DNA from: Streptomyces sp. NBC_01465
Lineage (GTDB): Bacteria > Actinomycetota > Actinomycetes > Streptomycetales > Streptomycetaceae
Assembly: GCF_036227325.1 (NCBI RefSeq)
Contig: NZ_CP109467.1
Location: forward strand, 1,302,001-1,366,000
DNA length: 64,000 nt
Reading direction: 5' to 3'
Shown: positions 47,050 to 63,643 of the stretch, piece by piece
Layout of the letters: the number at the start of each line of letters is the position of its first letter
How positions within the stretch are numbered: position 1 is the stretch's first letter
Translations under genes and position numbers: made by a program
Notes under the pieces: generated by a model
What the model saw: the letters and a program-made list of their open reading frames with translations, nothing else
What the model was told of the DNA's origin: nothing
Database searches by the model: none

Positions 47050-47957
47050 TTCGGCGCCCCGCGCCAACCCGCCACCGGCAGCGCGAACTTCGCGACCAGA
47101 CGGTCGGTGAACGACGCATGGTGCAGCCGCGCCAGCCGTACGGGAACAGCCCCGCGTCGCACCTCCACCCGCGCCCCCGCGGGCAGCGGAACCGACCTGC
47201 GCCCGTCGCACCAGAGCACCCCCTGCGGGGTGTGCGGCTGTACCTCGACGGCGAGCACCGACGTCGGCGAGGTGACGAGGGGCTTGGCGAAGAGCGCATG
47301 GGCGCCGATCGGCACCATCAGCAGCGCCTCCACCTCGGGCCAGACGACAGGACCGCCGGCCGAGAAGGCGTACGCGGTCGAGCCCGTCGGGGTGGCGCAG
47401 ACGATCCCGTCGCAGCCGAAGCCGGTCACCGGGCGTCCGTCGATCTCCAGGACGACCTCGAGCATCCGCTCGGGCTCGGTCTTCTGTACGGCGGCCTCGT
47501 TGAGCGCCCAGTCCCGGTGCACGACGTCCCCGTTGTTGTGCACCAGCACATCGACGGTCATCCGCTCCTCGACCTCGTACGCACGGGTGACGACCCGGTC
47601 GACGACCTTGTCGAGGTCGTCGCGCTCGGCCTCGGCCAGGAAACCGACCCGCCCCAGGTTGACCCCGAGCATCGGCACCCCGGAGGCGCGGGCGAACTCG
47701 GCGCCGCGCAGCAGCGTCCCGTCACCGCCGAGGACGATCAGCAGCTCGCAGTCGTCGAGCGCCGCGGGCGTCGCCTCGGCCACCAGCTGCACCGATGCGG
47801 GCAGCGGCAGGTCGGCCGCCTCCGCCTCCAGTACCCGTACGCCCAGGCCGCATTTGAGCAGCCCTTCGACGACGAGTTCGGCACTGCGGATGGCCGCCGG
47901 CCTTCCGGTGTGCGCCAGCAGGAAAACGGTGCGCGTCGCTGCTGCTTCTTCTGTCAC
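47046..47957 (-). CDS. nadK: NAD kinase
   Basis: A 303-residue enzyme phosphorylating NAD to NADP. The GGDGTLLRG motif (residues about 75-83), GVNLGRVGFLAE, the NAD-binding segment DGIVCATPTGSTAYAFSAGG and the C-terminal VDV strand pattern identify it. The GTG at 47957 overlaps the tlyA stop (GTGA) and has GAGGGG upstream. The tlyA-nadK-recN neighbourhood is conserved in actinomycetes; here a permease gene sits between nadK and recN. Confidence 0.96.
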   Translation of the reverse strand: MTEEAAATRTVFLLAHTGRPAAIRSAELVVEGLLKCGLGVRVLEAEAADLPLPASVQLVAEATPAALDDCELLIVLGGDGTLLRGAEFARASGVPMLGVNLGRVGFLAEAERDDLDKVVDRVVTRAYEVEERMTVDVLVHNNGDVVHRDWALNEAAVQKTEPERMLEVVLEIDGRPVTGFGCDGIVCATPTGSTAYAFSAGGPVVWPEVEALLMVPIGAHALFAKPLVTSPTSVLAVEVQPHTPQGVLWCDGRRSVPLPAGARVEVRRGAVPVRLARLHHASFTDRLVAKFALPVAGWRGAPN

Positions 47958-48769
47958 TGCGGCCCCTCTGCCACTGCACGGTCCACATCGGCCGGATCGA
48001 GCGCGGGCGCATCCGCCCGCAGCCACAGAAAGTACTCGACATTCCCGGAAGGTCCAGGCAGCGGGCTCGCGGTCACGCCCCGTACGCCGAGGCCGAGTTC
48101 GGCCGCCTGGCGCGCCACGGTCCGTACGGTCTCGGCCCGCAGTTCCGGGCTGCGGACGACACCGCCGCTGCCGAGCCGGTCCTTGCCGATCTCGAACTGC
48201 GGCTTGACCATCAGGACCAGGTCGGCGTCGGGCGCGGCGCACCGGGCCAGCGCGGGAAGCACCAGGCCAAGGGCGATGAAGGAGAGGTCGCCGACGACCA
48301 GATCGGCCGGCATTCCGTCGATCGCCTCGAGCGTCAACTCGCGTACGTTCGTACGGTCCTTCACGGTGACCCGGTCGTCGCTCTGCAGCGACCAGGCGAG
48401 CTGCCCGTACCCGACGTCCACGGCGACGACGCCCGACGCCCCCGCCCGCAGCAGCACATCGGTGAAGCCGCCGGTGGAGGCGCCCGCGTCCAGCGCGCGC
48501 CGCCCCTCGACCTTCAGCCCGAGCGGTACGAAGGCGGCGAAGGCCCCGGCGAGTTTGTGCCCGCCGCGCGAGACGTAGTCGGGATCGGTGTCGTCCTTGA
48601 GCACGACGACGGCCGCGCTCGTCTCGACCTGGGTCGCGGCCTTGGTCGCGGTGGCGCCGCCGACGGTCACCCGCTTCGCGGCGATCAGCTGACTGGCGTG
48701 CTCGCGCGAGCGCGCGAGGTTGCGGCGGACCAGTTCGGCGTCGAGGCGGCGGCGTGCCACTCCTGCCAC
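47954..48769 (-). CDS. tlyA: TlyA-family rRNA 2'-O-methyltransferase
   Basis: A 271-residue methyltransferase that in mycobacteria methylates 16S C1409 and 23S C1920, making ribosomes sensitive to capreomycin. It has an N-terminal S4 domain (RRLDAELVRRNLARSREHAS) and an FtsJ-like catalytic domain with the AdoMet motif ALDAGASTGGFTDVLL and DLSFIALGLVLPAL. Length fits. GTG 48769 is chosen over GTG 48760 because AGGAG lies eleven bases upstream. It is 7 bp beyond the small gene at 48777 and coupled to nadK. Confidence 0.94.
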   Translation of the reverse strand: MAGVARRRLDAELVRRNLARSREHASQLIAAKRVTVGGATATKAATQVETSAAVVVLKDDTDPDYVSRGGHKLAGAFAAFVPLGLKVEGRRALDAGASTGGFTDVLLRAGASGVVAVDVGYGQLAWSLQSDDRVTVKDRTNVRELTLEAIDGMPADLVVGDLSFIALGLVLPALARCAAPDADLVLMVKPQFEIGKDRLGSGGVVRSPELRAETVRTVARQAAELGLGVRGVTASPLPGPSGNVEYFLWLRADAPALDPADVDRAVAEGPQ

Positions 48770-48776
48770 GTTTCGT

Positions 48777-49040
48777 TCAGCTCCTGCGGTCGTACTGAGT
48801 CGATGTCGGGGGAGCCGGAGGACCCGGGCGTGCGTCCAGCGCGTCCAGCGCCTCACGCAGCCCCCGGTGTACATCTTCGTACACCTCGATGTGTCCGTCC
48901 GCCGGGAGGTGGTCCGCGTCGCCGAGCCGCTCCAGTTCCGCGTCGACCTGCGCGTTTCCGGTGGGTGTCCGCACCACGCCCAGGGGCACGGGCGCTGTGG
49001 GGTCCTGCACCGCGGTGGGGCCGCCGTCGCTCTCGCTCAT
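48777..49040 (-). CDS. small conserved hypothetical protein
   Basis: An 87-residue acidic protein with ERLGDADHLPADGHIEVYED followed by VHRGLREALDAL, a likely helix; both ends are disordered. No family is recognised. Its position just before tlyA on the same strand, 7 bp away, suggests cotranscription with tlyA-nadK. The ATG has no obvious ribosome-binding site, so it may be leaderless or begin differently. It is divergent from the SCP-2 gene. Confidence 0.65.
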   Translation of the reverse strand: MSESDGGPTAVQDPTAPVPLGVVRTPTGNAQVDAELERLGDADHLPADGHIEVYEDVHRGLREALDALDARPGPPAPPTSTQYDRRS

Positions 49041-49082: not shown

Positions 49083-49430
49083 ATGGCCACGACAGAGGAG
49101 TGCCGCAGCGCGCTCGACACGCTTTCGGACAACATGGCGCAGGCGAACAGCCAGGTCCGCAGCGCAGCCGCGCTCGACCGCTCGCTGAGCTGCCACATCA
49201 CGGACCTCGACGTCACCTTCACCGGCCGTCTGGTGGACGGTCGTATCGAAGTGCGGGACACCCAGCACGGCCCGCCCCGCGAGAAGGCCGAGATCCGCCT
49301 CGCCATGAAGGGCGACGACCTGGTCGCGATGGTCGGCGGCGAGCTGAACTTCGCCAAGGCGTGGGGCTCGGGCCGGGTCCGCCTGGAGGCGGGCTTCCGC
49401 GATCTGCTGCGGCTCAGGACACTGCTGTAG
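49083..49430 (+). CDS. SCP-2 sterol-transfer-fold protein
   Basis: A 115-residue protein of the SCP-2 fold, able to bind lipid-like ligands in a hydrophobic tunnel. The pattern CHITDLDVTFTGRLVDGRIE and REKAEIRLAMKGDDLVAMVG is typical, as is the C-terminal helix GFRDLLRLRTLL. It is a stand-alone domain, without a fused dehydrogenase or thiolase. The ATG has only a distant GAGG. It overlaps the 3' end of the iron ABC ATPase gene by 17 bp (convergent). Confidence 0.8.
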   Translation: MATTEECRSALDTLSDNMAQANSQVRSAAALDRSLSCHITDLDVTFTGRLVDGRIEVRDTQHGPPREKAEIRLAMKGDDLVAMVGGELNFAKAWGSGRVRLEAGFRDLLRLRTLL

Positions 49431-50226
49431 CCGTACGGGCACGAGCCTTGCGCCCGGCCGGCACCACGAGCGGAGTCCCGGTCTCCGGATCGTCGATGAC
49501 CTGGCACTTCACCCCGAAGACCCGCTCCACGAGGTCTGCGGTGACCACATCCTCCGGGGCGCCCTCCGCCACGATCTCCCCGGTGCGCATCGCGATCAGA
49601 TGGGTGGCGTAGCGCGCCGCGTGATTCAGGTCGTGCAGGACGGCCACGAGCGTGCGCCCCTGCGTCTCGTGCAGGTCGGCGCAGAGGTCGAGGACGTCGA
49701 TCTGGTGCTGGATGTCCAGGTACGTCGTCGGCTCGTCGAGCAGCAGCAACGGCGTCTGCTGGGCCAGCGCCATCGCGATCCACACCCGCTGGCGCTGCCC
49801 GCCGGAGAGTTCGTCGACATAGCGATCGGCCAGCTCGGCGACGCCCGTCGAGGCCATCGACTCCTCGACGACCCGCTCGTCCTCGGGCGACCACTGACGC
49901 AGCAGCCCCTGGTGCGGATAACGCCCGCGCGCGACCAGGTCGGCGACGGTGATGCCGTCCGGGGCGATCGAGGACTGCGGCAGCAGCCCCAGCGTCTTGG
50001 CGACCTTCTTCGCGGGCATCGAGCCGATGGCCTGCCCGTCGAGGAGGACCCGCCCCTTCGTCGGCTTGAGCATCCGCGAGAGGGCCCGCAGCAGGGTGGA
50101 CTTGCCGCACGCGTTGGGTCCGACGATGACCGTGAAAGAGTTGTCCGGTATCTCGACGGACAGGTTCTCCGCGATGGTCCGCTGGTCGTAGCCGAGGGTC
50201 ACGGCTTCGGCGGTCAGTCGCTGCAT
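49414..50226 (-). CDS. fepC: iron-siderophore ABC transporter ATPase
   Basis: A 270-residue FepC/FhuC-type ATPase powering ferric-siderophore import. Walker A is GPNACGKST (about residues 36-44), the signature is LSGGQRQRVWIAMAL, Walker B LLLLDEPTTYLD and the H-loop VLHDLNHAARYA. ATG 50226 is chosen because CAGGAGCAGGACC precedes it; an ATG at 50274 overlapping the upstream permease stop would add 16 residues. It completes the fepD-fepG-fepC order after two permeases. Confidence 0.93.
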   Translation of the reverse strand: MQRLTAEAVTLGYDQRTIAENLSVEIPDNSFTVIVGPNACGKSTLLRALSRMLKPTKGRVLLDGQAIGSMPAKKVAKTLGLLPQSSIAPDGITVADLVARGRYPHQGLLRQWSPEDERVVEESMASTGVAELADRYVDELSGGQRQRVWIAMALAQQTPLLLLDEPTTYLDIQHQIDVLDLCADLHETQGRTLVAVLHDLNHAARYATHLIAMRTGEIVAEGAPEDVVTADLVERVFGVKCQVIDDPETGTPLVVPAGRKARARTATAVS

Positions 50227-50273
50227 GGTCCTGCTCCTGGAATTCCTGGAAGTCGACGGGGTCATCGAGGTCA

Positions 50274-51320
50274 TCAGATCCGTCCTGCCTTGCGTTCGGT
50301 GACCAGCAGCCACAGCAGGTAGACGCCGCCCAGCACACCGGTCACCACACCGACCGGCAACTGGCGGTCACCGAAGGCCTGTTGGGCGATCCAGTCGGCC
50401 ACGACGACCAGGACCGCGCCCATCACGGCGGCGGCGAGAAGATTGGGTCCGGCCGAGCGGGTCACCCGGCGGGCGAGCTGCGGCGCGGTGAGCGCCACGA
50501 AGGCGATGGGTCCTGCCGCTGCCGTGGCGATCGCGGTGAGGAGCACGGCGGCGAGCATGAGCACGAGCCGGGTCCGTTCGACCCGTACGCCCAGCGCGAA
50601 GGCCGCGTCGTCGCCCATCTCCAGCATCCGCAGGTTGCGCCCGTTGCCGAGCACCACCGGGACGAGGACCGCGCAGGCCACGAGCAGCGGCCAGAACTGC
50701 GACCAGTCCCGCCCGTCCAGCGAGCCCGTCATCCAGACGACGGCCCGGGTGGCGTCGACGAGGTTGGCCTTGGTGAGCAGATAGCTGACGCAGGCGGTGA
50801 GCATGGCGGCAGCCCCGATCCCGACCAGGACCAGCCGGTAGCCGTGCACCCCGCGCTTCCACGCGAGCGCGTAGATCGCGACGCCGGTCACCAGGCCTCC
50901 GACGATCGCCCCGCCCGCGACGGCGACGGATCCGCCCTGGAAGAGGACGATCACCGTGAGCGCGCCCACGGACGAACCCTGGCCGAAGCCGATCACGTCC
51001 GGACTGCCCAGCGGATTGCGGGAGATGGACTGGAAGACCGCCCCCGAAATCCCGAGCGCGACCCCGACGAGCAGCCCGACGAGCACGCGCGGCAGGCGCA
51101 GGTCGTTGACGATGAACTCCTGCGCGACGGTCCCGCCGCCGAAGAGTGTCCGTACGACGTCGCCGGGTGCGATCGGATAGTCGCCGACCCCGATGAGCAC
51201 GACCCCGGCCGCCAGCGCCACGACGGTCAGCAGCAGTACGGCCGCAGCCGCCCGGACGTCGACCCGGAAGGAGAACCCGCCCGAGGTGCGGATCGCACGT
51301 GTCCCACGTATCGCTTTCAC
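50274..51320 (-). CDS. fepG: iron-siderophore ABC transporter permease (second)
   Basis: A 348-residue FecCD-family permease. Hallmarks are LRLPRVLVGLLVGVALGISG, SRNPLGSPDVIGFGQGSSVG and the coupling helix sequence around GPIAFVALTAPQLARR, with ten expected membrane helices. The GTG start overlaps the first permease's stop by 4 bp (GTGA), indicating coupled translation and a heterodimeric channel. It lies just before the ATPase. Confidence 0.93.
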   Translation of the reverse strand: MKAIRGTRAIRTSGGFSFRVDVRAAAAVLLLTVVALAAGVVLIGVGDYPIAPGDVVRTLFGGGTVAQEFIVNDLRLPRVLVGLLVGVALGISGAVFQSISRNPLGSPDVIGFGQGSSVGALTVIVLFQGGSVAVAGGAIVGGLVTGVAIYALAWKRGVHGYRLVLVGIGAAAMLTACVSYLLTKANLVDATRAVVWMTGSLDGRDWSQFWPLLVACAVLVPVVLGNGRNLRMLEMGDDAAFALGVRVERTRLVLMLAAVLLTAIATAAAGPIAFVALTAPQLARRVTRSAGPNLLAAAVMGAVLVVVADWIAQQAFGDRQLPVGVVTGVLGGVYLLWLLVTERKAGRI

Positions 51321-52363
51321 AGCTGGGCCATCCTCCGGCGCCGTACGAGAAAGATGAAGACGGGCCCGCCGACGAGCGCGGTCACGATGCCGACCTGCAG
51401 CTCCGCGGGCCGGGTGACGACCCGCCCGAGCACATCGGCGCCGAGCAGCAGCACGGGCGAGAGCACCGCCGAGTACGGCAGGACCCAGCGCATGTCGGGC
51501 CCGGTGATGGCCCGCACCACGTGCGGCACCATCAGCCCGATGAAGAGGATCGGCCCGCAGGCGGCCGTCGCGGCCCCGCACAGGAGGGTGACGGCGATCA
51601 TCGCGACGACGCGCGTGCGGTTCAGATGGGCGCCCAGCGCCTTCGCGGTGTCGTCACCCATCGCCATGGCGTTGAGCGGCCGCGCGATGAGCAGGGCGAG
51701 GACCAGACCGACCACGATGAACGGCCAGACCTCCGAGATGACCTTCCCGTCGGCCGATGCGAGCGAGCCGACGGTCCAGAAGCGCATCTGGTCGAGCGCC
51801 GCCGAGTTCAGCAGCTGTACGGCGTTCACATAGCCGAGCAGCGCCGCGGTGAGCGCCGTCCCGGCGAGCGCGAGGCGCACCGGTGTCGCGCTGCGGCCGC
51901 CGCTCAGTGCGTAGACGAGGACCGAGACGACGGCCGCGCCGATGAAGGCGAACCACACGTAGCCGGTGAAGGACGAGACCCCGAAGAGGCTGATCGCGGT
52001 GACGACGGCGGCCGACGACCCTGCGTTCACCCCGAGGATGCCGGGCTCCGCGATCGGGTTGCGGGTGAGCGCCTGCATCACCGCACCGGCCACTCCGAGC
52101 GCGGCGCCGACGAGCAGCCCGAGCACGGTCCGCGGGATGCGAACCTCACGGATGAGGACATCGGTGCCCGCGCCCGAATTGTGCAGCAGTCCGTGCCACA
52201 CGTCGGCGACCGGCACCTGTTTGGCACCGATCGCGATGCTCGCCACAACGACCAGCACCAGCAGGGCCGTTGACGCGAGCAGACCGGCGGCACGGACCGT
52301 ATGACGCCTGCGGGGCACGGGCGCGGTCGCCGCACCCGCCTGAGGAGGACTCTCTACCAACAC
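51317..52363 (-). CDS. fepD: iron-siderophore ABC transporter permease (first)
   Basis: A 348-residue FecCD-family permease with VRIPRTVLGLLVGAALGVAG, TRNPIAEPGILGVNAGSSAA and GLMVPHVVRAITGP. The GTG at 52363 is the first in-frame start but overlaps the iron box and lacks a Shine-Dalgarno; if used it would be near-leaderless, otherwise translation begins further in. The unit fepD-fepG-fepC has no siderophore-binding lipoprotein gene in the window, so an unlinked receptor is needed. Confidence 0.9.
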   Translation of the reverse strand: MLVESPPQAGAATAPVPRRRHTVRAAGLLASTALLVLVVVASIAIGAKQVPVADVWHGLLHNSGAGTDVLIREVRIPRTVLGLLVGAALGVAGAVMQALTRNPIAEPGILGVNAGSSAAVVTAISLFGVSSFTGYVWFAFIGAAVVSVLVYALSGGRSATPVRLALAGTALTAALLGYVNAVQLLNSAALDQMRFWTVGSLASADGKVISEVWPFIVVGLVLALLIARPLNAMAMGDDTAKALGAHLNRTRVVAMIAVTLLCGAATAACGPILFIGLMVPHVVRAITGPDMRWVLPYSAVLSPVLLLGADVLGRVVTRPAELQVGIVTALVGGPVFIFLVRRRRMAQL

Positions 52364-52406: not shown

Positions 52407-53435
52407 CTAGAGCCCCAGCTTCGCGAGCGCCTTCCCGCCGTCCAGCGCGCACACCCCGTCGCCCGCCTCGGTCCAGGCCGCCGCGCACAGCGCCCGCAGC
52501 CCGTCCAGCGCCTCCCCGTCCCCGTCGAGCACAAACGCCTCGTCCCGTACGGAAGCGGTCCAGCCCCCGCACCCGAACCCGCCGTCCCGCGCCTCCACCG
52601 CCGGCTGCCCGGTCAGCAGCCCCCGCAGGTCGGCGTCCACATAGGTCGGCCGGTGCTCGGGCTTCGCCGCCAGGAGCTGCGCCCCGTCGGTCACCCCGGT
52701 CAGTACGAGCAGCGAGTCCACACCCCCGTTGAACGCGCCCTCGATGTCCGTGTCGAGCCGGTCCCCCACCACCAGCGGCCGCTTCGCCCCGGTGCGCAGC
52801 ACGGTCTCCCGGTGCATCGGCGGCAGCGGCTTCCCGGCGACCTGCGGCTCGGCGCCTGTGGCGATGCGTACGACCTCGACCGCGGCCCCGTTCCCGGGAG
52901 CGATCCCCCGCGCACTCGGGATGGTCAGGTCGGTGTTGGACGCGAACCACGGCACCCCGCGCCGGATCGCGTACGAAGCCTCGGCAAACCGCGACCAGGG
53001 CAGATCGGGTCCGCCGAACCCCTGCGCCACGGCGGCCGGATCGTCGTCGGCGGAGTCGACCGGCACCAGACCGCGCTCGCGCAGCGCGACCCGCAGCCCC
53101 TCGCCGCCGATGACCAACACCCGTGATCCTTCCGGCACTTGTTCGGAGATCAGCCGGGCGGCGGCCTGGGCGGAGGTGATGACATCGCTCTCCCCGGTGG
53201 GGATACCGAGCTCGGTGAGGTGCCCGGCCACCGCGTCCGGGGTCCGCAGCGCGTTGTTGGTGACGTACGCGAGATGCATCCCGCCGTCCCGCGCCGTCCC
53301 CAGCGACTCGACGGCGTGCACGATGGCCTCGCCGCCGGCGTAGACGACCCCGTCCAGATCCAGCAGAGCCGTGTCGTACGCCTCGCTCAGCGCGGTCGCG
53401 CTGCCGTCGGGGCTCTGCCTGCTCTGCTGACTCAT
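52407..53435 (-). CDS. HAD-superfamily phosphatase, NagD/AraL type (subclass IIA)
   Basis: A 342-residue phosphatase. Motif I is DLDGVV (about residues 26-31), motif II VTNNA, the lysine motif GKPLPPMHRE and the final Mg motif VVGDRLDTDIEGAFNGG, all in the NagD pattern. Family members remove phosphate from small molecules such as nucleotides, pyridoxal phosphate or 2-phosphoglycolate. After residue 260 the chain has an extra segment with CGGW. ATG 53435 has GAGGAG directly upstream; ATG 53447 is less suitable. It is divergent from the DUF1015 gene and lies upstream of the iron box. Confidence 0.9.
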   Translation of the reverse strand: MSQQSRQSPDGSATALSEAYDTALLDLDGVVYAGGEAIVHAVESLGTARDGGMHLAYVTNNALRTPDAVAGHLTELGIPTGESDVITSAQAAARLISEQVPEGSRVLVIGGEGLRVALRERGLVPVDSADDDPAAVAQGFGGPDLPWSRFAEASYAIRRGVPWFASNTDLTIPSARGIAPGNGAAVEVVRIATGAEPQVAGKPLPPMHRETVLRTGAKRPLVVGDRLDTDIEGAFNGGVDSLLVLTGVTDGAQLLAAKPEHRPTYVDADLRGLLTGQPAVEARDGGFGCGGWTASVRDEAFVLDGDGEALDGLRALCAAAWTEAGDGVCALDGGKALAKLGL

Positions 53436-53502
53436 CGCACTCCTCATTCGCTTGATCTCCCCCGATCATCCCCCATCGCCGCACCACACCTACGATGCAG
53501 CA

Positions 53503-54780
53503 ATGAGCACAACTGGGCGTGCGGCCGGCGGTTTGCACCTGTTCCCCTTCCGCGGACTGCGGTACGTCCCCGAGCGGGTCGGCAGCCTCGCGGCCGTCAC
53601 CTCTCCCCCGTACGACGTCGTGGTCCGCCCCGACGGACTGCACCACCTCGAATCCGCGGACCCGCACAACATCGTCCGGCTGATCCTCCCCCAGGCGAGT
53701 ACCCCCGCCGCCCGCAACGAACAGGCGGCGGCCACCCTCACCCAGTGGCTCGCGGAGGGCGTCCTCGCCCCGGACCCCGAACCGGCGCTCTACGTCTACG
53801 AGCAGAGCAGGGACGGTCTCCTCCAGCGCGGCCTGGTCGGCGCCCTGGCGCTCTCGGCCCCCGAGGACGGCGTGGTCCTGCCCCACGAGGACGTGATGCC
53901 GCACATCGTCGAGGACCGCGCGGCCCTGATGCGTACGACGGCGGCGAACCTCGAACCCCTCCTGCTCACCTACCGCTCGGACGGCACCACCACCGGCGCC
54001 ACGGCGGTCATCGAGCACACGATCACCCGCGACCCGCTCCTGGCGACCACCACGGAGGACGGCTTCAGCCACCGCCTCTGGTCCCTCACGGACCCCACCG
54101 AACTGGCCGAGGTCCGCGCCGACCTCGCACACCGCCAGGCGCTGATCGCCGACGGGCATCACCGCTGGGCGACGTATCTGCGGCTGCGGACCGAGCACGC
54201 GTCCCCCAGCCCCTGGGAGTACGGCCTGGTCCTCCTGGTCGACACGGCCCGCCACCCGCTCCAGGTCCGCGCGATCCACCGCCTGCTGCACCGCCTCCCG
54301 GTGGCGGAGGCTCTCCAGGCTGCGGCCGGTGCCTTCCACGTCCGTACGATCGACGCCCCGCTCCCCCAGGCCCTCACGGCGCTCGCGGAAGCAGCGGCCG
54401 AGGGCAACGCCTTCCTGCTGGCCGGCGACGGCCGCTTCCACCTGCTCTCCCACCCCGACCGGGCTCTTCTCGCGCGCACGATCCGCACGGACCGCCCGGA
54501 GGCCTGGCGCACGCTGGACGCGACGGTGCTGCACTCGACGCTGCTCGACGAGGTGTGGCGCACCCCGGACACCCCCGAGCACATCGCGTACATCCATGAC
54601 ACGGAGGCGGCGGTCGAGCAGGCGGAGCGCCACAACGCGACGGCCGTTCTGATGCATCCGGTACGCGAGGAGGTCGTACGGGACCTGGCCCGCCAGGGCG
54701 TGACGATGCCCCGCAAGTCGACGTCCTTCGGCCCCAAGCCGGCCTCGGGCCTGGTGCTGCGCAGCCTGACGGTCGACTGA
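53503..54780 (+). CDS. DUF1015 family protein
   Basis: A 425-residue soluble protein of the DUF1015 family, some members of which have been linked to SerC-like neighbourhoods; the biochemical role is unknown. The N-terminus FPFRGLRYVPERVGSLAAV and SPPYDVV are the family hallmark, with the further motifs LPHEDVM and IADGHHRWATYLRLR (a DGHHR block likely at the active site). The ATG lacks a clear ribosome-binding site. A strong hairpin follows between it and the convergent repeat-protein gene. Confidence 0.85.
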   Translation: MSTTGRAAGGLHLFPFRGLRYVPERVGSLAAVTSPPYDVVVRPDGLHHLESADPHNIVRLILPQASTPAARNEQAAATLTQWLAEGVLAPDPEPALYVYEQSRDGLLQRGLVGALALSAPEDGVVLPHEDVMPHIVEDRAALMRTTAANLEPLLLTYRSDGTTTGATAVIEHTITRDPLLATTTEDGFSHRLWSLTDPTELAEVRADLAHRQALIADGHHRWATYLRLRTEHASPSPWEYGLVLLVDTARHPLQVRAIHRLLHRLPVAEALQAAAGAFHVRTIDAPLPQALTALAEAAAEGNAFLLAGDGRFHLLSHPDRALLARTIRTDRPEAWRTLDATVLHSTLLDEVWRTPDTPEHIAYIHDTEAAVEQAERHNATAVLMHPVREEVVRDLARQGVTMPRKSTSFGPKPASGLVLRSLTVD

Positions 54781-54829: not shown

Positions 54830-54838
54830 CACATGGAC

Positions 54839-57115
54839 TCAGTCCTTGTCGCGGTCGACAACCTGCTCGTCGACCTCAACTTCGGCCTCAACCTCGGCCT
54901 CGGCTTCAACCTCGGCCTCAACCTCGTCGTCGGCCTCAACCTCCACCTCGGCCTCAACGTCGGCTTCGTCGTCGGCCTCTTCCTCGACGTCGACGAACTC
55001 GACGCCCTCCAGCTCGGCGAGCCGGTCAGAGGCGTCGGTGGTCCCGTCGCGGTCGGCCTCGATCGCCTTGGCGAACCACTCCTTGGCCTCGTCCTCACGC
55101 TTGGCAGCCAGCAGCGCGTCGGCGTAGGCGTACCGCAGTCGCGCGGTCCACGGCTGTACGGAGTTCGACGCCAGTTCGGGGCTCTGCAGCGTCACGATCG
55201 CCGCGTCGATCTGCCCCATGTCACGCCGGGCACCGGCCGCGACGAGACGCATCTCGACCTGACCGGCCTTGTCGAGCTTCTGCACCTCGGGCTCGCCGGC
55301 CATGGCCATCGCGCGCTCGGGGCGGCCCAGACCGCGCTCGCAGTCGGCCATCACGGGCCACAGCTCCACGCTGCCGGTCATGCGCTTGGCGGCCCGGAAC
55401 TCGGCCAGCGCCTCGGAGTACTTCTGCGTGGCGTACGCGGCGAAGCCGGCGGCCTCACGGACGGCGGCCACGCGGGAGGCGAGCTTCAGCGCGATACGCG
55501 AGTACGCGTAGGCCTCCTCCGGGTCCTCGTCGATCAGCCGGGCGACCATCACCAGGTTCTTGGCGACGTCGTCGGCGAGGGTCTTGGGCAGGCTCATCAG
55601 CTCCTGCCGCACATCACCGTCGATCTCGTGCCCAGTGACGTCCTCGGGAATCGGCAGCCGGCGGATCGGCTCGCGGTCACGGTCGCCCTGGTAGCCGCCC
55701 CGCTCGCCACCACGGTCATCGCGCTGGCCACCGCGGTAACCGCCGCGGTCGCCCCCACGGTCGTCACGCTGCCCGCCGCGGTACCCACCGCGGTCGCCGC
55801 CGCGGTCGTCACGACGCTCGAAGCCACCACCGCTGGGACGGCCACCACGGTCGTCACGACGGAAGCCGCCACCGCGCTCGTCATCACGACGCGGCCCGCT
55901 CGGCCGGTCGTCACGACGTCCATAGCCGCCACCGGAGGGACGGCCCCCACGGTCGTCGTCACGACGGAAACTCGGCCGGTCGTCACGACGCTCGAAGCCA
56001 CCGCCGGAGGGACGGCCCCCACGGTCGTCGTCACGACGGGGTCCACGGTCATCACGCTGACCACCACGGAAGCCACCACCGGACGGACGGCCCCCCCGGT
56101 CGTCATCACGACGGAAACTCGGCCGGTCACCGCCACGGTCGTCACGACGCTCAAAACCGCCACCGCTCGGACGGCCACCACGGTCGTCGCGCTGACCCCC
56201 ACGGTATCCACCGCGGTCGTCGTCACGACGGGGTCCACGGTCATCACGCTGACCACCACGGAAGCCACCACCGGAGGGGCGACCACCACGGTCGTCATCA
56301 CGACGGAAACTCGGCCGGTCACCGCCGCGGTCGTCACGACGCTCGAAGCCACCACCGCTCGGACGGCCACCGCGGTCGTCACGACGCTCGAAGCCACCAC
56401 CGCTGGGACGGCCACCACGGTCGTCACGACGGAAGCCGCCACCGCGCTCGTCATCACGACGCGGCCCGCTCGGCCGGTCGTCACGACGCCCATAGCCGCC
56501 ACCGGAGGGACGGCCACCGCGGTCGTCGTCACGACGGGGTCCACGGTCATCACGCTGACCACCACGGAAGCCACCACCGGACGGGCGACCACCACGGTCG
56601 TCATCACGACGGAAACCCGGCCGGTCACCACCGCGGTCGTCACGACGCTCAAAGCCACCACCGCTGGGACGGCCACCACGGTCGTCATCACGACGGGGCC
56701 CACGGTCACGGTCGTCACGGCGGAAGCCGGGACGGTCGCCGCCGCCACGGTTGTCGTCCCGCCGGAACCCGCCGCGGTTGTCGTCGCGCTGACCGCCGCG
56801 GTACCCGCCACCGCTGCTGGGCCGTCCGCCACGGTCGTCGTCACGACGGGGACCGCTGGGCCGGTCGTCGCGACGACCGTAGCCACCGCCACCACCGCCG
56901 CCGGCCGGACGGCCACCGCGGTCATCACGACGCGGCCCGCCGGACCCACGGTTGTCACCGCCGCGGAAACCACCACCACCGCGGTTGTCACCGCCCCGGT
57001 CGTCCCTGCGGAAGCTGGAGCCACCACGGTCACTGTCCCTGCGCGGACCACGGTCACGGTCGTCACGACCGCGCTGATCGCGATCCGGACGATCGTCGGG
57101 AGAGTTGGTGGACAT
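54839..57115 (-). CDS. RGG-like repeat protein with helical repeat domain and acidic tail
   Basis: A 758-residue protein with three parts. Residues 1 to about 475 are almost entirely Arg, Asp, Gly, Ser and Phe/Tyr, built from units like GGRPSGGGFERRDDRGGDRP, FRRDDDRGG and FRGGQRDDRG; RPSGGG occurs eleven times. Residues about 480-690 are a helical TPR-like domain (DEDPEEAYAYSRIALKLASR, ALAEFRAAKRM, MAMAGEPEVQKLDKAGQ, EAKEWFAKAIEADRDG). The last 60 residues are an acidic Glu/Val/Asp/Ala tail. The repeats resemble eukaryotic RGG RNA-binding regions and suggest RNA binding or condensate formation, by inference only. ATG 57115 has AGGAG nine bases upstream. The gene begins 129 bp beyond the 5S rRNA, after the rrn terminator. 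Confidence 0.85.
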   Translation of the reverse strand: MSTNSPDDRPDRDQRGRDDRDRGPRRDSDRGGSSFRRDDRGGDNRGGGGFRGGDNRGSGGPRRDDRGGRPAGGGGGGGYGRRDDRPSGPRRDDDRGGRPSSGGGYRGGQRDDNRGGFRRDDNRGGGDRPGFRRDDRDRGPRRDDDRGGRPSGGGFERRDDRGGDRPGFRRDDDRGGRPSGGGFRGGQRDDRGPRRDDDRGGRPSGGGYGRRDDRPSGPRRDDERGGGFRRDDRGGRPSGGGFERRDDRGGRPSGGGFERRDDRGGDRPSFRRDDDRGGRPSGGGFRGGQRDDRGPRRDDDRGGYRGGQRDDRGGRPSGGGFERRDDRGGDRPSFRRDDDRGGRPSGGGFRGGQRDDRGPRRDDDRGGRPSGGGFERRDDRPSFRRDDDRGGRPSGGGYGRRDDRPSGPRRDDERGGGFRRDDRGGRPSGGGFERRDDRGGDRGGYRGGQRDDRGGDRGGYRGGQRDDRGGERGGYQGDRDREPIRRLPIPEDVTGHEIDGDVRQELMSLPKTLADDVAKNLVMVARLIDEDPEEAYAYSRIALKLASRVAAVREAAGFAAYATQKYSEALAEFRAAKRMTGSVELWPVMADCERGLGRPERAMAMAGEPEVQKLDKAGQVEMRLVAAGARRDMGQIDAAIVTLQSPELASNSVQPWTARLRYAYADALLAAKREDEAKEWFAKAIEADRDGTTDASDRLAELEGVEFVDVEEEADDEADVEAEVEVEADDEVEAEVEAEAEVEAEVEVDEQVVDRDKD
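55690..57100. repeat. array of imperfect coding repeats in the RGG-like gene
   Basis: About 1.4 kb of degenerate tandem repeats. Long near-identical blocks recur, for example GTCCACGGTCATCACGCTGA starts near 56041, 56232 and 56538, each followed by ACCACGGAAGCCACC, with period about 190-310 bp. Most differences are third-codon changes, so the protein repeat is under selection while the DNA is homogenising. Confidence 0.85.
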
Positions 57116-57183
57116 GGGTGGGGCTCCTGTCTTCGGGTACTGCAAGTCATTCTCGCGCAGTCGACGATGCGACGCGCTTCGGG

Positions 57184-57235
57184 AAATAAAAAAGGACCTT
57201 TGGTCCCAGCGTGATCGCTGGGACCAAAGGTCCTT
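57184..57235 (-). terminator. rho-independent terminator of the rRNA operon
   Basis: A 20-bp perfect stem with TGAT loop (57192-57235), left arm beginning AAGGACCTTTGG. On the minus strand it ends in TTTTTTATTTCCC. It begins 9 bp beyond the 5S gene and ends before the repeat-protein gene. Confidence 0.95.
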
Positions 57236-57243
57236 CAAAGATT

Positions 57244-57362
57244 GTTCGGCGGCGTCCTACTCTCCCACAGGGTCCCCCCTGCAGTACCATCGGCGCTGAA
57301 AGGCTTAGCTTCCGGGTTCGGAATGTAACCGGGCGTTTCCCTAACGCTATGACCACCGAAAC
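57244..57362 (-). rRNA. rrf: 5S ribosomal RNA
   Basis: On the minus strand it begins GTTTCGGTGGTCATAGCGTT and ends GACGCCGCCGAAC, with the CCGAACCCGGAAG loop of 5S RNA; about 119 nt as in other actinomycetes. It follows 23S after about 115 nt and is followed by the operon terminator. Ends are approximate by a few bases. Confidence 0.97.
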
Positions 57363-57476
57363 CCTAATGGGCCTCTAGCGAACAAGCACACTCTTCAATT
57401 AAGTAAGTGGAACTGTTCAAGTCGGGCAAGATTGTTCGTAGTCTGGGAACTACACAGTGGACGCGAGCAACTGAGG

Positions 57477-62425
<4,949 letters not shown>

Positions 62426-63001: not shown

Positions 63002-63643
63002 TCAAGTTCGCCTGCGTCGGGGGGTGTGGACCCGATAAGGGCTGACCGTGGGGTCGTTGTCGATCCAGAAGCGCCAGGGCTGGGTGGCTCCGCCGCCTCC
63101 TACTCCGGTCCTCGGGCCGTTGCGTACCTGGTCGGGGTGGGGTGGGGTCCCTGAGAGCAGGGACAGGGCGGTGGGCGGGGCGGCGCAGACGTCCGTGCCG
63201 TTGAGGGTGCGGTCCACGTCCAGGGCCGTGGCCAGGCGGGCCGGGCCTTTGGCCAGTTCTCTGTCATGGCGGGCCGAGATTCGACGTTTGCGGGCCAGAT
63301 CCGCGCCCACCCGGACCTCTCCTGCGCGGAGCAGGACGCCGCTCGCGGTGCCCTCGGGGCCGCAGACCGTGTTGAGGCAGTGCCACATGCCGTAGGTGAA
63401 GTAGACGTACGCGTGTCCGGGCGGGCCGAACATCACCTCGTTGCGCGGGGTGGGGCCGCGGTAGGCGTGCGAGCCGGGGTCGATCTCGCCTGCGTACGCC
63501 TCAACTTCCGTGAGGCGGAGTTCAATGGGTCCTTCGGGCGTGCTGCGGACCAGGGTGCGGCCCAGCAGGTCGGGAGCGACCTCCAGGACCGGGCGGTCGA
63601 AGAACTCCCGTGGCAGCGGCGTACGGTCGGGGCTCGCGATCAT
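63002..63643 (-). CDS. 3-methyladenine DNA glycosylase (AAG/MPG type)
   Basis: A 213-residue base-excision repair enzyme that removes alkylated purines. The fold starts [20 protein letters not shown], and the motifs [21 protein letters not shown] (catalytic Glu in EVEAY), [16 protein letters not shown] and [13 protein letters not shown] match the alkyladenine glycosylase family. Start ATG 63643. It lies on the same strand as, and upstream of, the rRNA operon promoter region, and is divergent from spo0M. Confidence 0.93.

Follow-up and report, generated by a model that had tools for sequence, protein, structure and literature searches.

An arginine-rich TPR protein encoded beside the rRNA operon in most actinobacterial regions sampled, with a tentative role as an RNA-associated scaffold

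The window, a 64,000-nucleotide stretch of DNA from Streptomyces sp. NBC_01465, carries an rRNA operon (rrn) followed on the same strand by a gene for a three-part protein (Table 1). The coordinates, strand, ATG start and TGA stop of this gene were exact upon translation of 54839–57115. Downstream lie a convergent DUF1015 gene and genes for a HAD-family hydrolase, an NAD kinase and a TlyA-like protein; genes of the tlyA type encode rRNA methyltransferases, a role that is predicted for the neighbor here. The three ORFs between the HAD and tlyA-like genes (49414–52363, minus strand) look, by eye, like a siderophore-type ABC importer consisting of an ATPase and two permeases.

Table 1. Features of the locus, with the DEAD-box helicase encoded elsewhere in the same genome
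Feature	Coordinates	Strand	Evidence and remarks
Whole gene	54839..57115	(-)	758 aa: Arg-rich arm, TPR core, acidic tail; translation and counts
Disordered arm, residues 1-480	55676..57115	(-)	RRDD, RGG and RPSGGG repeats
TPR superhelix (predicted), residues 481-704	55004..55675	(-)	AlphaFold2; generic TPR matches; weak Pfam TPR_19
Acidic tail, residues 705-758, including stop codon	54839..55003	(-)	Net charge -27
Leader, with -10-like element and ribosome-binding site	57116..57190	(-)	By eye, common to same-genus leaders
rrn operon hairpin terminator	~57236-57191	(-)	Terminator scan; fold of 128-nt interval
5S rRNA	57244-57360	(-)	Rfam RF00001, 101.1 bits
23S rRNA	57473-60597	(-)	Rfam RF02541
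16S rRNA	60900-62425	(-)	Rfam RF00177
mpg, methylpurine-DNA glycosylase, upstream of rrn	63002..63643	(-)	PF02245, E 1.6e-63; conserved neighbor
DUF1015 gene, convergent neighbor	53452..54780	(+)	PF06245
HAD-family hydrolase, conserved neighbor	52407..53447	(-)	PF13344
TlyA-like FtsJ/S4 methyltransferase, conserved neighbor	47954..48874	(-)	PF01728 and PF01479
DEAD-box helicase	L193 1-2154, own genome C1 near 4.37 Mb	(+)	PF00270/PF00271

The first-pass annotation had described about 475 residues of Arg-rich repeats, with eleven RPSGGG units and many RRDD motifs, followed by a helical repeat domain and an acidic tail. Within the 480 arm residues we counted 11 RPSGGG, 26 RRDD, 38 RGG and 9 RRDDDRGG motifs. 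As these counts far exceed both the means (0.011, 1.4, 11.5 and 0.009, respectively) and the maxima (1, 7, 23 and 1) of 1000 shuffles of the same residues, the repeats are real; at the DNA level, Tandem Repeats Finder detects them with periods of 12–192 bp. The arm is 29.6% Gly, 27.7% Arg and 19.8% Asp, with 19 Phe, eight Tyr and not a single lysine, and bears a net charge of +29; the tail (54 residues, 54% Glu plus Asp) is as acidic as Table 1 indicates, and the opposite charges described for the two ends of the protein are thus borne out. Its 38 RGG motifs give the arm the clustered RGG content of RGG-box RNA-binding proteins, and it likewise has the features of an Arg-enriched mixed-charge domain, with Arg and Asp as the main charged residues and a positive net charge. 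An antisense open frame (54833–57214, plus strand; 793 aa, rich in Thr, Val and Ala) and a shifted frame (55597–57150, minus strand) were taken as by-products of the arm repeats rather than as genes, and a match of the repeats to Pfam RDM3_C, scoring under its cut-off, was judged to be a low-complexity likeness.

The helical domain was predicted confidently by AlphaFold2, which gave an all-helical repeat fold with a mean pLDDT of 94.5 for the translation of 54977–55687. The predicted fold, a superhelix of antiparallel helix pairs, goes together with a TPR sequence signal that is weak (24.9 bits to PF14559, TPR_19, against a cut-off of 25), and we therefore class the core as a TPR domain. Fold searches of the model against the PDB returned generic TPR proteins, with no functional relative among those matches; a sequence search of solved structures gave none at E 0.1, and no NCBIfam model matched the full-length protein. 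No nuclease family, including the RNase E/G catalytic domain, was detected in Pfam or NCBIfam at E 1, which rules against a scaffold of RNase E-type RNP bodies. Across 51 loci of the same class, the nearly fixed core positions listed here (R72, R77, E78, Y85, R98, R102, D115, E117, R118, R122, E145, R154, D156, R183, Y188, D212 and R222, in the numbering of 54977–55687) are all charged or aromatic, and seven of them (E78, Y85, D115, R118, E145, D212 and R222) also hold in seven loci from other classes. Such positions would fit a conserved binding face, although some will be structural.

The TPR core proved to be widespread, being found in 280/295 genomes of the class, 120/121 of the genus and 101/246 of the phylum. 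Eight of the 15 misses in the class fall in one family (f79), whose missed genomes measure 1.2–1.8 Mb. Within the genus, 110 of the 120 matched genomes have an open frame of more than 500 aa. Of the ten best-match frames that are shorter than 500 aa, seven begin no more than 500 bases from a contig edge and one comes from G604, where the region contains 25 N; the remaining short frames are those of G628 and G582, with G553 split into two matches.

The gene had been reported to lie directly after the 5S rRNA on the same strand, and it does, with its start 128 bp 3' of the 5S gene; what was overlooked is that a terminator intervenes. The terminator scan found a hairpin of at least 20 pairs plus a T-run in this interval, and the fold z-score of the 128 nt is -6.4. 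Because this strong hairpin separates the 5S rRNA from the gene, plain co-transcription with rRNA is unlikely, and some read-through from the operon is possible. Among relatives, 34/51 of the intervals between 5S and gene contain a terminator by a strict rule. Many of the other 17 show, by eye, a GC hairpin with a poor T-run, and some (L058, L063, L075) were truncated because the start, assigned mechanically, fell too far upstream. Since the leader that follows the terminator looks conserved in the genus, with its -10-like element and ribosome-binding site recognized by eye, a promoter of its own, placed immediately behind the terminator of rrn, is probable for the gene; the sigma-70 promoter scan found none. 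A second short inverted repeat (GCGC...GCGC) seems, by eye, to follow the terminator in many leaders of the genus (e.g., L076, L077 and L078) and seems to be absent from L072 and L079.

Position next to rrn was then compared across 60 fetched regions, hand-chosen on long contigs, of which 56 were usable; left out were L044 (a 10-base placeholder), L067 (no core by BLAST), and L037 and L052 (less than 2.5 kb upstream). In 49/56 regions the gene is preceded, on its own strand and at a distance of no more than 1 kb, by a 5S gene (18/20 in the genus, 26/29 elsewhere in the class and 5/7 in other classes, counts that are uncorrected for relatedness), and in 44 of those 49 the gap from 5S to start is at most 250 bp. 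The adjacency is thus conserved across classes, well beyond the genus. The exceptions are L082, in which 5S lies 1397 bp before the core with no usable in-frame start; L083, with 25 N in the region; L036 and L045, in which 5S is 4.9 and 2.6 kb away, respectively, the latter with 100 N in the region, all of them outside the 3 kb that precede the core; and L055 (a Mycobacterium), L066 and L069 (other classes), in which no rrn adjoins the gene. Draft genomes outside the genus agree with the adjacency: 22/41 plus-strand matches lie within 2 kb of a contig start versus 0/23 minus-strand matches (both scored by distance to the contig start), a bias that would follow from assemblies breaking at an rrn upstream of the gene. 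One genome, G198, has two rrn-TPR copies (L050 and L051), in each of which 66 bp separate 5S from the predicted start, and the two proteins are identical at 338/345 ungapped positions; from this case, the pair appears to duplicate as a unit.

That the gene is held beside rrn in most regions suggests a possible tie to ribosome production. Adjacency alone, however, is no proof of function, because a terminator intervenes and because rrn itself sits inside an old, longer gene string: a tyrS-like gene was found in 16/20 upstream regions (with no more than roughly 30% identity in one case) and mpg in 10/20, with Pfam confirmation in L186 and the window. These observations favor the main rival explanation, which gives the protein a general role or one unrelated to RNA and sees the adjacency as old, slowly eroding gene order, as does the persistence of the gene where no rrn adjoins it (L055, L066 and L069). 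Against such a bystander stand the short gaps between 5S and gene and the comparison with the HAD neighbor. Among the 36 regions outside the genus, 11 keep rrn without a same-strand HAD gene and three show the reverse; the rrn link is present in 26/29 versus 20/29 for HAD elsewhere in the class, and in 5/7 versus 3/7 in other classes. The HAD counts come from a tblastn search of some 6 kb with the HAD protein of the window as query, which may have overlooked divergent copies. Within the genus, one region has rrn without HAD and two (L082 and L083) the reverse. In this hand-chosen sample, uncorrected for relatedness, the rrn link outside the genus looks more persistent than the HAD link, and we regard the bystander explanation as a genuine contender, if on the unlikely side.

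A search of the genome with the arm matched one other protein, a DEAD-box helicase whose C-terminal tail carries RRDD/RPSGGGF repeats like those of the arm. A codon pattern for RPSGGGF had 12 matches in the 9.14 Mb genome, nine in the TPR gene, two in the helicase tail and one in another ORF resembling a glycoside hydrolase, which we presume to be coincidental; a reversed control pattern had no match in the same 9.14 Mb. The motif FRRDDDRG occurs four times in the genome, always within the TPR gene. Elsewhere in the genus, a helicase of similar look, judged by eye, was recovered in 4/10 genomes, and a stricter shared unit, sought in ten other genomes of the genus, was matched in three: at the helicase's place in G023, beside the helicase in G360, and a third time in G446. 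In none of the ten did the stricter unit occur in the TPR gene. Arm searches in three other families returned no helicase; beyond the gene, those in G230 and G420 gave its antisense strand, and that in G192 one weak match. The repeat language common to the two proteins, as read from their sequences, is therefore clear in this genome and partial elsewhere.

The repeats in common with a helicase, together with the example of bacterial RNP bodies built on disordered arms (PMC10412687), could also indicate a general scaffold for mRNA or RNP condensates, one whose arm brings RNA and helicase together in the service of RNA turnover or cold adaptation, with no special tie to rRNA. As this would leave the persistence of the rrn link unexplained, we consider it unlikely.

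To what extent the arm itself is conserved was assessed in 58 loci, with the first ATG or GTG after 5S taken as the start; L082 and L083 yielded no arm, and in the other 56 it was 40 residues or longer. All 56 are positive (net charge +6 to +41), with 12–40% Arg (median 24.5%), a median of 0.2% Lys (maximum 7.6%) and 0–8% Phe, Tyr and Trp combined. Length runs from 280 to 574 residues in 18 regions of the genus, 43 to 599 in 31 others of the class and 68 to 318 in seven of other classes; 12 of the 31 have short arms of 43–119 residues. The repeat units differ among families and classes, and an Arg-rich positive arm is found throughout. This is the conserved trait; Streptomyces and certain other families show the RGG/aromatic dialect most strongly. 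The first-pass annotation thus stood as regards the Arg-rich RGG arm, TPR domain, charge split and rrn adjacency of the protein in the window; its RGG and aromatic character does not extend to the family in general, in which the arm is often short. The tail is also most pronounced in the genus, where the last 50 residues have a net charge of -10 to -23, compared with medians of -7 in the rest of the class and -2 in other classes.

Many database entries begin at or near the TPR core, which bears on whether the arm is always present. In a first search, 17/120 entries start within 40 residues of the core; in a second, which favors short proteins, 110/114 new entries do so, and some entries that start at the TPR domain lie on chromosome-sized contigs (e.g., P0123). 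Given that most genus frames are long, as described above, most such entries may simply be nearer start calls, with genuine short forms or true losses of the arm possible among the others. At least one entry, P0001, appears to carry a wrong-frame reading of the arm, and entries P0003, P0004 and P0018 have Arg-poor N-termini too. The DNA-level repeats, the length range outside the genus and the entries starting at the TPR domain could be taken to mean that function resides in the TPR domain and that the arm is a nearly neutral, slippage-prone expansion, the reading on which those entries mainly bear; it is very improbable given an Arg-rich, positive arm in every measured case, across families and classes, despite different repeat units.

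Among open-licence PMC articles, we found none with a title or abstract on the function of this protein. MSMEG_3754, described as a TPR protein and given as the orthologue of Rv1691, is on the high-confidence list of a formaldehyde pull-down with an antibody to the RNA polymerase beta subunit (PMC7092591); it showed no DNA association there, and the authors suggest that it may be RNA-associated. With 275 proteins listed, the pull-down is weakly specific. MSMEG_3754 also appears in a table of the ClpC1 interactome in the accessible part of PMC10433963. The gene order around Rv1691 given in PMC3072309 is lprJ, Rv1691, Rv1692, Rv1693, tlyA, ppnK, recN, and L055, the M. lacus relative, resembles it in having the TPR gene beside HAD, TlyA and NadK genes. 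From this gene order and the TPR description, we infer that MSMEG_3754/Rv1691 and the TPR-core proteins form one family, although the M. lacus relative differs in that its arm is short, with some 73 residues ahead of the core, and in that rrn does not adjoin the gene.

The reading that we prefer, tentatively and at a probability of about 0.45, is that the protein may be an RNA-associated actinobacterial TPR scaffold that serves the synthesis of rRNA or the assembly of ribosomes. Its disordered arm, rich in Arg and poor in Lys, would bind RNA weakly at many points, as its composition and the helicase with common repeats suggest; the TPR superhelix, by virtue of its fold, would dock a protein partner; and the acidic tail, where present, might compete with RNA for the arm, tuning release or solubility. 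The protein would most likely act close to transcribing RNA polymerase, on nascent rRNA or pre-ribosomal particles, and could there aid rRNA folding or assembly, perhaps with the DEAD-box helicase. This role as an RNA-associated scaffold is favored by the breadth of the core in class and genus, an rrn link that outlasts HAD outside the genus, the positive arm, the RPSGGGF units in common with the helicase, the nearby tlyA-like gene and the pull-down of the putative relative MSMEG_3754. We counted against it the terminator, the string of rrn with tyrS and mpg, the three loci without rrn, the variable aromatic/RGG content, the database entries starting at the TPR domain, the helicase link absent in three families, the stricter unit missing from the TPR genes of ten genomes in the genus and the weak specificity of the pull-down.

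A more elaborate version would have a dedicated scaffold made beside rrn, its arm on nascent pre-rRNA at RNA polymerase, helicase and assembly factors gathered through arm and TPR domain, a nucleolus-like condensate at the rrn loci, and release aided by the acidic tail; we judge this distinctly improbable. The protein has partial counterparts elsewhere. For Arg-enriched mixed-charge domains, whether targeting is to nucleoli or to speckles depends on net charge and patterning (PMC9324279); Arg and Asp are the main charged residues there as here, but those proteins are eukaryotic and nuclear, whereas the present arm is rich in Gly as well and is joined to a TPR domain. In yeast Loc1p, a ribosome biogenesis factor, RNA is bound by repeated, positive PUN motifs in a disordered region (PMC11662656); the present likeness is one of repeated positive motifs in a disordered region, and no folded domain is reported for Loc1p in that paper. 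RNase E BR-bodies are bacterial RNA condensates on a disordered region that recruits partners (PMC10412687), a basis similar to the scaffold proposed here, for which a condensate is only a proposal; the present protein differs in that no nuclease domain was found in it. The likeness to DEAD-box helicases with Arg-, Gly- and Asp-rich tails in the same genome extends to RRDD and RPSGGGF units, but these proteins have a helicase domain instead of a TPR domain and carry their arm at the C-terminal end.

A core so common in the class is, for all that, covered neither by NCBIfam nor by a function paper in the literature searched. A protein gene kept by rrn across several actinobacterial classes offers a lead on how these bacteria make ribosomes, and, if the arm does gather RNA and helicase, the protein would be a bacterial counterpart of Arg-rich nucleolar and speckle proteins. 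The arm also stands apart in its codons: CGT makes up 68% of its Arg codons, compared with 24% in the core and 0–17% in six neighboring genes, and its GC3 is low, at 0.62 versus 0.84–0.92 in those genes, with the CGT bias reflecting either translational selection or the history of the repeats.
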